From positions 1 through 46,368 of the forward strand of contig CALHLE010000012.1 in NCBI GenBank assembly GCA_938034415.1: a stretch of DNA of 46,368 bases, given 5' to 3'. Position 1 is the first letter of the stretch. Every line of letters starts with the position of its first letter. The notes under the pieces are model-generated. The model did no database searches and was not told where the DNA came from. It worked only from the letters and a program-made list of their open reading frames with translations. The stretch comes from an uncultured Anaerolineae bacterium. GTDB lineage: Bacteria; Chloroflexota; Anaerolineae; J036; Brachytrichaceae. Below are positions 28,975 to 46,368 of this stretch, one piece after another. The position numbers and the translations under genes were made by a program.

Positions 28975-28988
28975 ACTAGTGTTGGTTT

Positions 28989-29027: not shown

Positions 29028-29057
29028 ATGTTAGCACACTCACCCTGAGAGTGTCAA
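29028..29057 (-). promoter_or_regulatory. groESL promoter overlapped by a second CIRCE-like site
   Basis: On the minus strand TTGACA (29057-29052) and TAACAT (29033-29028) form a -35/-10 pair with an 18-bp spacer. The same bases contain TTAGCACAC, a 9-nt spacer, and GAGTGTCAA (29031-29057), a CIRCE with three mismatches. HrcA bound here would sit directly on the promoter. Confidence 0.65.
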
Positions 29058-29156
29058 GGGGCGCGCAACGGCGTGAGCGTGTCTGCCAAGCGGTGATGGC
29101 CAGCCGGTGGCCAAGCGGTGGTGTCAAGGGGCACACAACGGCGTGAGCGTGTCTGC
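29051..29156. repeat. 36-bp imperfect direct repeat, 70 bp apart
   Basis: GTGTCAAGGGGC.. at 29051-29086 recurs at 29121-29156 with two differences. The 10-mer CCAAGCGGTG also recurs inside the unit (29086-29095 and 29111-29120). The first copy includes the -35 box of groES, so the second may be a promoter-region duplication. No gene is seen in 29058-29308. Confidence 0.7.
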
Positions 29157-42588: not shown

Positions 42589-43908
42589 ATGAACATCGCC
42601 ATCATCGGTGCGGGGGCGACCGGCCTGGCGGCCGCGCACGACCTGCTGAAAGCCGGCTGCCGCGTCACGCTCTTGGAAGCCGGCGACCGACCCGGCGGCC
42701 TGGCCGCCGGCTTCAAAATGCCGCACTGGGACTGGTCGCTGGAGAAGTTCTATCACCATTGGTTCGAGTCCGACGGCGACGTGCTGAAGTTGGCCGACGC
42801 GATCGGCGTTCGCGATCGCGTCATCTTCAAGCGGCCCATCACGGTTTCGTATTGGAATGGCCGCTTTTATCCGCTCGACTCGCCGGCGGCTGCGCTGAAG
42901 TTCCCCGGCCTGTCGTTGCCCGCCAAGCTCCCCTTCGGCCTGGCCACGATCTACTTGAAATATCTCACTGCGAACTGGCGCGCGTTGGAGCGCTACACCG
43001 CGCATGCGTGGGCGTCGCGGTGGATGGGGCGGCAGGCGTATGAGGTCATCTGGCAGCCGCTGCTCGAAGGCAAGTTCGGCGACCTCTATCAACAGGTGAA
43101 CATGGCCTGGCTGTGGGCGCGCATCAAGGCGCGCAGCCCTCGGCTGGGCACCTTTATCGGCGGCTTCCAGGCTTTCTTCGACGCCCTCGCCGCGCGCGCG
43201 CAAGCCCTGGGCGGCGTCATTCGCTATTCAACTCGCGTTGAGGCGCTGCGCCTTGAGGACGCGCTGAGTCGCCGGTGGCGAGTCCGGGCCTGTTCCCAAG
43301 GCTCGACGTTCGAGGACCTATTTGACGTTGTGCTCAGCACAACGTCGCCGCGCGTCATGGCCAAGCTCGCGCCGCAGTTGCCGCCCGATTACCTGGGCGC
43401 GCTCAGCGCGCTGCAATCGCTGGGCGCGGTGGTCGTGATCTTCGCGCTCGACCGGCCGCTCGACCGCCAGGGCTACTACTGGCACAACCTGCCCAAGAGC
43501 GCCGGCTTCCCCTACCTCGCCATGTGCGAGCACACCAACTTCGTCGCGGCCGAGCACTTCGGCGGGCAACACCTCATCTATTGCGGCGACTACCTCCCCC
43601 CCGCGCATCCGTACTTCTCCATGACGGAAGACGAATTGCGCAGCGCCTTCCTGCCCTCGCTGGCGCGCTTCAACCCGCAATTCGACCCCTCTTGGGTGCA
43701 AGATGCGTGGGTGTTTCGCGAAGCCTACGCGCAGCCGGTGCCATTCGTCAACCACAGCCGACACATCCCGCCGGTGAAGACTCCCCTGCCCGGCTTGTTC
43801 TTCGCCAGCATGAGCCAGGTGTATCCGTGGGATCGCGGCACCAACTACGCCATCCGGCTCGGCCGCCAGACGGCGGCGGCTATACTCGCATCAGCGAGCG
43901 ATGGGTGA
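42589..43908 (+). CDS. FAD-dependent amine-oxidase-like oxidoreductase
   Basis: A 439-residue flavoprotein. The N-terminus has the dinucleotide motif 'IIGAGATGLAAAHDLLKAGCRVTLLEAGDRPGGLAAGF', and 'DWSLEKFYHHWFESDGDVLKLADAIGV' follows. The C-terminal FAD contact 'GLFFASMSQVYPWDRGTNYAIRLGRQTAAAIL' matches the protoporphyrinogen oxidase/carotenoid desaturase/amine oxidase superfamily. Members of this type are often seen beside sugar or cell-surface genes, but the substrate is open. It overlaps the FHA gene start by 8 bp, so the two are translationally coupled. No carotenoid partner is next to it, although a crtA-like gene lies elsewhere in the window. Confidence 0.88.
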   Translation: MNIAIIGAGATGLAAAHDLLKAGCRVTLLEAGDRPGGLAAGFKMPHWDWSLEKFYHHWFESDGDVLKLADAIGVRDRVIFKRPITVSYWNGRFYPLDSPAAALKFPGLSLPAKLPFGLATIYLKYLTANWRALERYTAHAWASRWMGRQAYEVIWQPLLEGKFGDLYQQVNMAWLWARIKARSPRLGTFIGGFQAFFDALAARAQALGGVIRYSTRVEALRLEDALSRRWRVRACSQGSTFEDLFDVVLSTTSPRVMAKLAPQLPPDYLGALSALQSLGAVVVIFALDRPLDRQGYYWHNLPKSAGFPYLAMCEHTNFVAAEHFGGQHLIYCGDYLPPAHPYFSMTEDELRSAFLPSLARFNPQFDPSWVQDAWVFREAYAQPVPFVNHSRHIPPVKTPLPGLFFASMSQVYPWDRGTNYAIRLGRQTAAAILASASDG

Positions 43909-45595
43909 AAACAACGCACACATACCCCGTGTGCGCGTGCAAGACGAACTCGGCCGCGTGGTGAACGTCTTTCTGCTTTCGCCGGATGGCGAAGGGCTGA
44001 CCGTGGGCCGCGCCCTGAACGCCGGCGCGTCGTTGCCGTCGAAAGACGTCTCCCCCCTCCACTTGCGCATCCGCTGGGACAGCACGTTTGGCCGCGTCGT
44101 CGTCACCGACCTCGGTTCGGCGACCGGCACTTATCTGGACGGGCGCAGGCTAACGCCGGAGATGCCCTATGCCTGGCATGGCGGACAGCACCTCCGCATT
44201 GGCCGCTACACGCTCAAACTCATCATGCCTGGGTCGGCCTCCGGCGCGCCGGACGGCTCTGCGCAACCCGCCGACGCAGCCGATACCCCTCGGACGCCGG
44301 CACCGCGCCTGCGACGCTTTGGCGTCGCTTTCTTGATCGGCACGCTTGCAGCGCTGGCGCTGGCGGCGCATATCGTCCTGTCGCGCGCGGTCGAAATCCT
44401 GAGCTTCGCGCTGATCGCCGACGGGGGCGAAACCCTTGTGCGCTTCCAGGTCGTCAACGCGCAACGCGTCGAGCTGCTGGTGGATGGCCAGCCGATCGAT
44501 CCTCAGCGGTTGAGCTTCGATCCACACACCGGCGCGGGCGCATACCGCGCTCGGCCGGGCGAGAGGAATTTCATGCTCATCGCCTACGACCACCTAGGCC
44601 AGCCGGCGACGAGCCGCCTGATCTCCCCAGCGCCCATCGAGACGCCTCGCCCGACCCTCACGCCGTTGCCCGACGAGATCGGCCTGGCCGTGTTTGCGTT
44701 CAACGGCGTGAACAAGGTCAATGACCTGAGCGACATCATCTTGAGCAGGGGCGAATCGTTGTTGATCGAGTGGGACGTGGTCAACGCAGACGCCGTGGAG
44801 CTGCAACCGGCCGGCACCTTTAAGCCGCAGGACGCCGTGCGCGTCGCGCCAAACGAGACGACGGTATACACGCTCATCGCCCGCAGCCTGCTCGAAGAGG
44901 TGCGCCGCTCGGTCAAGGTCATCGTGGTGGACGCGCAGGCGACGGCTGCCGCAAACGCGACCGCCGGCGCCGTCGTCCAGGCCACGCGCGACGCCGAGGC
45001 CGCCGCGCAAGCCCACATGGCGGCCACGGCGACGGCCGCCTCACAGGCCACTGCTGCCGCCATCGCCGATGCATTCGCCCGCGCGCAGGAGGCAGCCGCG
45101 GCCAAAGCGACGCAGGACGCCCTGGCCATACTCAACGCGACGCGCGCAGCCGCCATGCGCGAGACGGCTCAGGCATACAGCGCCGCCATAGCCCAGGCGA
45201 CGGCGGACGCGCAACAAGCGGCAGCGACAACCGCCACTGCGGTCGTGCGGACGACCGCGCAAGCGATGGAAGCGCGCTACGGCCAATACAGCGGCGTCTG
45301 GACGAACGACGACCCGACGACCGATGGGATCACCCGCCTGATCATCAGCAACATCGGCCCCACCATCACCGTGCAGGCGTTCGCCCGTTGCCAGACGCGC
45401 GATTGCGATTGGGGCGCGCGCAGGCAGACGTTCATCGGCGAGCCGTTCAGCATCGCTTTCACCTTCGGCGACGGCGTGACGCGCCGGCTCACCTTCGCGC
45501 GCGTCGGCGACAAGCTGCGCGTCACCGACGCCGATTCGCGTGGGCCAATCCGCACCTACACCTTCTCGCCGGCGAGGCTGCCGCTCGCGCCATGA
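43901..45595 (+). CDS. FHA-domain membrane protein with Ala-rich coiled segment
   Basis: A 564-residue protein. Residues about 15-110 are an FHA phosphothreonine-binding domain ('LTVGRALNAGASLPSKDVSPLHLRI', 'VTDLGSATGTYLDGRRL'). One TM helix spans about 143-165, so the FHA domain is cytoplasmic and the rest is outside. Residues about 170-345 look like two Ig-like folds. Residues about 347-455 are extremely Ala/Thr-rich with 'ATAxA' periodicity, predicted helical and low complexity. The C-terminal about 100 residues form a small beta domain ('YSGVWTNDDPTTDGITRLIISNIGPTITVQAF'). It probably relays kinase signalling to a surface structure. No Ser/Thr kinase is in the window. A TATACT (43881-43886) is 14 nt before the ATG. 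Confidence 0.85.
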   Translation: MGENNAHIPRVRVQDELGRVVNVFLLSPDGEGLTVGRALNAGASLPSKDVSPLHLRIRWDSTFGRVVVTDLGSATGTYLDGRRLTPEMPYAWHGGQHLRIGRYTLKLIMPGSASGAPDGSAQPADAADTPRTPAPRLRRFGVAFLIGTLAALALAAHIVLSRAVEILSFALIADGGETLVRFQVVNAQRVELLVDGQPIDPQRLSFDPHTGAGAYRARPGERNFMLIAYDHLGQPATSRLISPAPIETPRPTLTPLPDEIGLAVFAFNGVNKVNDLSDIILSRGESLLIEWDVVNADAVELQPAGTFKPQDAVRVAPNETTVYTLIARSLLEEVRRSVKVIVVDAQATAAANATAGAVVQATRDAEAAAQAHMAATATAASQATAAAIADAFARAQEAAAAKATQDALAILNATRAAAMRETAQAYSAAIAQATADAQQAAATTATAVVRTTAQAMEARYGQYSGVWTNDDPTTDGITRLIISNIGPTITVQAFARCQTRDCDWGARRQTFIGEPFSIAFTFGDGVTRRLTFARVGDKLRVTDADSRGPIRTYTFSPARLPLAP

Positions 45596-45700
45596 CGTTC
45601 GCTTGCCCGGCCAGGGCCGGCGCTCCTGCAGAAACGCCAACGCTAACGCCGCCGTGAACGTCTCGCTGCGGGTGGCGGACAGCCTGCCGCATCGCCGCTT

Positions 45701-45748
45701 CGCGCCCTCGTTGCGGCGCCAGCGCGACGGCGCGTTTTCTTTGTCTTT
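45701..45748 (+). terminator. Possible terminator after the FHA gene
   Basis: CGCGCC (45701-45706) or the nearer GCGCC (45716-45720) can pair with GGCGCG (45729-45734), followed by GTTTTCTTTGTCTTT. The stem is short but the T-rich tail is good. Confidence 0.4.
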
Positions 45749-45861
45749 GCTAGGTGCCAGCCACATGGAGACGCGCCCCAATCACCCAGTGGCCACAGGT
45801 GCGCCGTATGTGTTACGTCTTTCAATGCACGGCGTATACATTAGCACCCTGAGAAGCAGGG

Positions 45862-45867
45862 TATAAT
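45862..45867 (+). promoter_or_regulatory. Consensus -10 of the Cas3 leader
   Basis: TATAAT at 45862-45867 is embedded in a small palindrome ACCCT...AGGGT. Transcription would start near 45875, leaving a leader of about 155 nt before the Cas3 ATG at 46031. Confidence 0.5.
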
Positions 45868-46030
45868 CCAGGGCAAGATGCAGGCTAGATGCCCAAACAG
45901 CTGCGCCACAGCGGCCCCATTGAAGATCAGGGTGCTACTGTCCATCTGTGAAGAAGCACTCGAACCTCCGCGCACTCTTCGTGTGCGCGGCCCCATTTAG
46001 CCGATTGCGCTTTTGATGCTGAGGTGTCGG

Positions 46031-46368
46031 TATGAACCTACAAGATGCTGAGGATTTCTTCGTAGAAGCGTTCGAGGCACTCATGGGCTTTCCACCGCTG
46101 CGGTGGCAAAAGCGGCTCTTTCTTCGCTTCGTCAAAAACCGCATCCCGAATGCCTGTAGCCTGCCGACGGGCCTGGGCAAGACAACAGTGATCGTGATTT
46201 GGCTCATCGCCCTTGCCTACCAAGCTGAGTCAGGCGCGCCAGCATTGCCCCGGCGACTTTTCTACGTGGTGAATCGCCGCACGGTGGTTGATCAGGCAAC
46301 AGAAATTTGCGACCAAATTCGCCAGAAGCTAGAGTCGAGCGATAGCCCTATTTTTGTGCAGCGCATCA
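46031..46368 (+). CDS. cas3: Cas3 helicase, subtype I-G (I-U)-like, partial
   Basis: An ATG at 46031 opens a frame that runs off the window end (112 codons seen). It encodes 'NLQDAEDFFVEAFEALMGF', a Q-motif-like 'LRWQKRLFLRF', Walker A 'SLPTGLGKTTVIVIWLIAL' and motif Ia 'RRLFYVVNRRTVVDQATEI'. The 'PTGLGKT' and 'VVNRRTVVD' motifs are typical of the Cas3 of subtype I-G (formerly I-U), which starts directly with the helicase part and, as I recall, carries HD nuclease at its C-terminus. It would unwind and degrade target DNA in a type I CRISPR response. It is preceded by a TGAGGTG sequence 6 nt upstream of the ATG. The rest of the operon (csb1, csb2, csx17, cas4-cas1) would lie beyond 46368. Other DEAD-type helicases are a less likely reading. 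Confidence 0.8.

Follow-up and report, generated by a model that had tools for sequence, protein, structure and literature searches.

The window analysed here, a stretch of 46,368 nucleotides, ends within a gene that raises the question of whether a CRISPR-Cas operon begins at its right edge and, if so, how that operon would be controlled. An ATG at position 46032 opens a forward-strand frame of 112 codons (46032 to 46368) that runs off the window without a stop. As the window is the entire contig C12 of the source genome (2.83 Mb, 98% complete, 83 contigs), this frame is cut by the end of the contig and not by the choice of window. The encoded fragment contains a Walker A motif (SLPTGLGKT) together with FYVVNRRTVVDQAT, and was found to match the NCBIfam model TIGR02621 (cas3_GSU0051, 'type I-G Cas3g') with an E-value of 5e-32 over model positions 2 to 93 of 854. 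The PADLOC Cas3g 'subtype Dpsyc' model also matched (E 1e-33), and families ranked behind the Cas3g models matched the frame far more weakly. A first-pass annotation had read the last 112 codons as the N-terminus of a Cas3-like helicase from the same two motifs, in agreement with both the open reading frame and the Cas3g models. It had also ventured the subtype, I-G (I-U), from this short stretch; the TIGR02621 match, an orthologous locus in a related genome and I-G repeats elsewhere in the window's own genome bear this out. A search of viral sequences for a relative of Cas3g found none. A reading of the right edge as the first gene of a type I-G CRISPR-Cas operon is supported.

The remainder of the operon was sought in the window's own assembly. 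Neither csb1, csb2 nor cas1 was found there, nor was a second piece of the window's Cas3. Among 99 related genomes, two possess close relatives of this Cas3: G003, of the same genus (92% identical), whose contig likewise stops within the gene, and G013, of another genus in the same family (88% identical). G013 carries a complete I-G locus comprising a cas3 helicase (448 aa), an HD part (505 aa), csb3/Cas8g2 (253 aa), csb1 (370 aa), csb2 (489 aa) and a CRISPR array. All of these Cas proteins match I-G models, csb3/Cas8g2 at an E-value of 6e-19 but below the curated cut-off. The helicase and C-terminal HD halves of Cas3 are both present but as two genes, an in-frame TAA separating them with an ATG one codon later (L025:13120-13230); the split may represent either two working genes or one broken gene. 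The cas4-cas1 gene has collapsed to a remnant ending in the C-terminus of Cas1 (its last 88 residues; L025:7190-8300) and is followed by a cas2-like frame that looks intact by eye. Adaptation has probably been lost in G013, and the adaptation genes may be broken in the window's genome too. We would expect the large subunit of the window's operon to be of the csb3 kind, rather than csx17.

Using the G013 locus as a query against the window's genome revealed that contig C1 starts inside an I-G array, of which four repeats are present (E-values of 6e-10 to 0.02 with the model of I-G repeats). The degenerate last repeats, a common interrupting sequence and the flank all align with the end of the G013 array, and the two array ends are orthologous. 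Given this orthology, the unassembled cas operon would sit in an assembly gap that C12 borders with its right end and C1 with its left, a placement made by synteny and not by sequence. Because C1 starts inside the array, the same gap would account for the lack of csb1, csb2 and cas1 in the assembly; the operon may also have been lost from some members of the population. Thus, of the components that the first-pass annotation anticipated beyond the edge, csb1, csb2 and the array occur in the G013 orthologue and the array on C1 as well, the two genes being missing from the own assembly, while csb3/Cas8g2 stands in G013 in place of the anticipated csx17 and cas4-cas1 persists only as a fragment.

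Upstream of the cas slot lies a gene for an FHA-domain-like protein (43901 to 45595, forward strand), an open reading frame which we include for context only; homologues accompany the I-G loci of G005 and G006, and G013 retains a remnant. The gap between this gene and cas3 (45596 to 46031) had been noted to contain a consensus -10 element and hairpins, and both were found. A perfect TATAAT at 45862 to 45867 (forward strand), present also at the aligned place in G013, is the probable promoter element of the cas operon. Its -35 is not clear, and no sigma-70 promoter with both boxes passed a consensus scan of the leader. An Rfam search of the leader returned no match.

The hairpins in the gap proved to be two degenerate I-G repeats around a single 37-nt spacer-like sequence (45891 to 46001). 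The earlier statement that no repeat array lies to the left consequently holds for an ordinary array, but not for this degenerate two-repeat mini-CRISPR, 31 to 141 bp left of the start codon. In 14 true repeats, from this and other phyla, the I-G repeat takes the form TCC-hairpin-GGCCCCATTGAAGC, with a fully paired and covarying 7-bp stem. The 3' parts of this repeat appear twice in the leader, as GGCCCCATTGAAG at 45913 to 45925 and GGCCCCATT at 45989 to 45997, 76 nt apart. All three elements of the unit are on the forward strand. The first degenerate repeat, psiR1 (45891 to 45926), retains GGCCCC and 7 of the 8 bases of the 5' handle (ATTGAAGA against ATTGAAGC), its hairpin being eroded. It is followed by the spacer-like guide psiS (TCAGGGTGCTACTGTCCATCTGTGAAGAAGCACTCGA, 45927 to 45963), whose 37 nt are the usual spacer length, and by psiR2 (45964 to 46001), which retains TCC-hairpin-GGCCCCATT with an 8-bp stem and a decayed 5' handle of its own. 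Retention of the handle in psiR1 and of the hairpin in psiR2 is the pattern that would be expected for a unit making exactly one guide.

A covariance model of the 14 true repeats was run unfiltered over both strands of the 46 kb. psiR2 (45964 to 46001) ranked first in the whole window (14.2 bits, E 0.08) and psiR1 third (45906 to 45925, E 0.7). The same two elements in G013 scored E-values of 0.006 and 0.25, and nothing outside the array region matched better in a search that also covered the loci of G003, G005 and G000:C1. A match at 46088 to 46113 was set aside, as it lies inside the cas3 coding sequence. Each repeat match is weak when taken singly; the weight appears to lie in how they are paired, ordered and spaced, in their strand, and in their place in two genera. 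Furthermore, the 3' part of the repeat scored 20.5 in the window leader against a best of 12.6 in 100 shuffles, and the 8-bp hairpin of psiR2 folds with a z-score of -4.0 (-2.7 in G013). The guide is identical in G013 at 37 of 37 positions, whereas most of the leader upstream of psiR1 is only 32 to 61% identical (61% just before psiR1, 32% upstream of the target described below). It was found in 2 of 396 genomes of the class, and a search of viral contigs for it was negative.

A match to the guide was located in the promoter, just upstream of TATAAT. Here the reverse strand (45838 to 45855) reads TTC (45855 to 45853) and then TCAGGGTGCTAATGT (45852 to 45838), corresponding to guide positions 1 to 11 and 13 to 15. 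For I-G systems, PMC9638904 describes TTN as the PAM, a handle of 8 nt and cleavage by Csb2 at 4 nt beyond the hairpin. The reported handle and cut site fit the positions in the present repeats, on which the handle is ATTGAAGC, and TTN accommodates both flanking trinucleotides, the TTC of the window and the TTA of G013. Within guide positions 1 to 15 the sole mismatch in the window is at position 12, and those in G013 are at positions 6 and 12. Every sixth base of the guide is flipped out by type I effectors, a behaviour established for the type and presumed here for I-G. With positions 6 and 12 left out, all 13 pairable bases are matched in both genomes. Moreover, the 15-nt targets of the window and G013 differ by two substitutions only, at exactly these positions, for which the probability by chance is about 1 in 105. 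In 4000 dinucleotide shuffles of the leader the count stayed below 13 matches in both genomes, attaining at best 9 with a PAM and 11 without. TTNTCAGGNTGCTA, comprising PAM and seed, occurs once in the whole 2.83-Mb assembly, at this promoter, and PAM and seed together are found once per genome. This match and its uniqueness, like the anatomy and conservation of the unit, are directly established from the DNA. Kept in two genera with changes only at positions 6 and 12, the guide-target pair also supports, on in vivo evolutionary grounds, the flipping-out of bases when I-G guides pair.

We consider it likely that an I-G operon of the csb3/Cas8g2 kind has its 5' end at the right edge, that its leader carries a CreR-like mini-CRISPR, and that Cascade represses its own operon; the I-G system would thereby probably keep itself switched low via one of its own guides. 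For transcription, processing, loading, repression and relief we infer the following sequence of events. Transcription from the promoter at about 45862 would read through the mini-CRISPR into cas3, and Csb2 (Cas5-Cas6) would cut both degenerate repeats to yield one crRNA-like guide with a 5' handle from psiR1 and a 3' hairpin from psiR2. Loaded with this guide, I-G Cascade would bind the promoter of its own operon through the TTN PAM and about 13 paired bases, and so block RNA polymerase. Real crRNAs or anti-CRISPRs would draw Cascade off and relieve the repression, in keeping with the CreR logic described in PMC12737573.

Binding of the host's own promoter by I-G Cascade without cutting is assumed in this scheme. 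Cas3 is reported as a stable part of the I-G effector in PMC9638904; as a standing subunit of the complex, it makes a non-destructive binding of the own promoter something that needs explaining. An R-loop with about 13 paired bases should be too short for Cas3 cutting. On balance, we lean towards the view that a CreR-type guide works in I-G in this manner, with a Cas3-loaded complex held uncut on its own promoter by a guide from its own mRNA leader in a closed loop with a single promoter.

CreTA (PMC9458426) relies on a mini-CRISPR and a promoter target of this kind. The guide might accordingly repress CreT, a small toxic RNA or peptide that the promoter would drive, in an addiction module to which the cas genes are mere neighbours. 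A 40-codon frame (ATG at 45878 to TAG at 46000) does begin just past the promoter, but it overlaps the mini-CRISPR, and the G013 counterpart has GCG in place of the ATG and is thrown out of frame by a 1-nt gap in psiR2. For these last two reasons a coding explanation of the conserved leader was dropped. Additionally, the interval from the expected transcription start (about 45874) to psiR1 (45891) could hardly accommodate a toxin gene, and the next gene is cas3. We judge an addiction module of this kind to be improbable, and attach just as small a chance to the leader repeats being a functionless fossil, all that is left of an old array before cas3. The repeats are certainly degenerate, array ends in these genomes decay as well, and another I-G locus, that of G530, contains a degenerate mini-array with no target in its locus. 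A fossil would not, however, be expected to keep its guide identical at 37 of 37 positions across two genera in a leader otherwise so diverged, nor 13 of 13 pairable matches and a PAM in both genomes with changes confined to flip-out positions, nor to decay in a manner that spares just the halves needed for one guide.

It is also conceivable that the likeness to repeats is accidental and that TAGCACCCTGA and TCAGGGTGCTA form an operator pair for a protein repressor. These two 11-nt sites are inverted, lie 74 bp apart and flank the -10, and sister loci use WYL-type regulators. Against this, one copy begins exactly at the expected spacer start behind the repeat handle and the other carries the I-G PAM, with positions 6 and 12 its sole differences, the conservation spans 37 nt and not 11, and no regulator gene is adjacent in either the window or G013. 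We hold this to be very improbable, more so than either the addiction module or the fossil, and retain autorepression by Cascade as the preferred reading.

CreR autorepression is listed by one review for types I-B, I-E and V-A (PMC13131331), where it is described as tested, and attributed by another to type I and V-A broadly (PMC12737573). Outside the two primary surveys (Liu 2023, Shmakov 2023), we found no report of CreR in I-G. As described by Liu et al. 2023 (Cell Host Microbe, doi 10.1016/j.chom.2023.08.005; summarised in PMC12737573, PMC12948488 and PMC13131331), CreR is a degenerate mini-CRISPR beside the cas operon with a spacer-like guide partly complementary to the cas promoter beside a PAM, and has no toxin partner. 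The present leader likewise places a guide between degenerate cognate repeats and a promoter match beside a PAM, and has no coupled toxin, its only small frame not being conserved in G013. At the level of sequence the element appears to share the features of CreR and to lack none of those tested. It differs in its subtype, in the position of the unit within the 5' leader of the very operon to be repressed, and in being known here from sequence alone.

The CreA of CreTA (type I-B, Haloarcula; PMC9458426) resembles the unit in its psiR-psiS-psiR order, partial promoter complementarity and selective repeat decay; in contrast, the present locus has no conserved toxin unit and its promoter leads into cas3. 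With the I-G (I-U) systems of Thioalkalivibrio and Geobacter (PMC9638904), the locus shares Cas3g, csb1 and csb2 (in the orthologue), I-G repeats and the TTN PAM. It differs from them in csb3/Cas8g2 standing in place of csx17, and in the split cas3 and remnant cas4-cas1 of the orthologue. RNA-guided autorepression of CRISPR-Cas would thus extend to a subtype for which we found no report, and one with peculiarities that matter, namely a Cas3 reported as an integral effector subunit and the lack of Cas5 at the handle. With this locus it can be tested directly how a complex loaded with Cas3 would bind host DNA and leave it uncut.

Only two genomes carry the mini-CRISPR; in G003, the third close relative, the leader is unrelated. 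Nothing convincing was found when repeat halves were sought in the leaders of G003, G005, G006, G008, G064, L035-L037, L057, L058 and L060-L064; a half seen by eye in the L035 leader was dropped, as its score was no better than that of shuffles. As a negative control, the G530 mini-array (L062) gave no PAM-flanked seed match of at least 7 pairable bases in 15 kb. This unit, a degenerate repeat-spacer-repeat upstream of the I-G array leader (L062:7665-7769), may be either a fossil or another regulatory guide.

In the I-G loci of G005 and G006, which belong to the genus, the slot beside the FHA gene holds WYL-type regulators instead. The G003 leader (L024:9660-9992) contains a remnant that looks like the beginning of such a regulator, cut short and joined directly to cas3g, and the mini-CRISPR is absent. 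From these regulators and the remnant, RNA-guided and protein regulation seem to replace each other at these loci. Different I-G variants occupy the slot beside the FHA-like gene in sister species (L026, L028 and window 43901 to 46368), as if modules were swapped at one chromosomal site.

Several minor observations were made alongside. G001 possesses a long I-G array (L074, G001:C94) with the same repeat as G013, and a search of that genome found no Cas3g match. A short dispersed palindromic element lies in the I-G array end of G013 (L025:6553-6636) and has many copies across the window's genome (G000) and G003. The window's genome also encodes a second effector operon, which resembles type I-A and lies on a short contig that has neither an array nor cas1 (L011, G000:C68:1-7756), comprising a helix-turn-helix regulator, a Cas3 with C-terminal HD, Cas8a, Cas7 and Cas5. 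Within the window itself, two near-identical 36-nt direct repeats lie 70 nt apart at 29051 to 29156, close to a CIRCE-like inverted repeat (of the TTAGCACTC...GAGTGCTAA type) near 28985.
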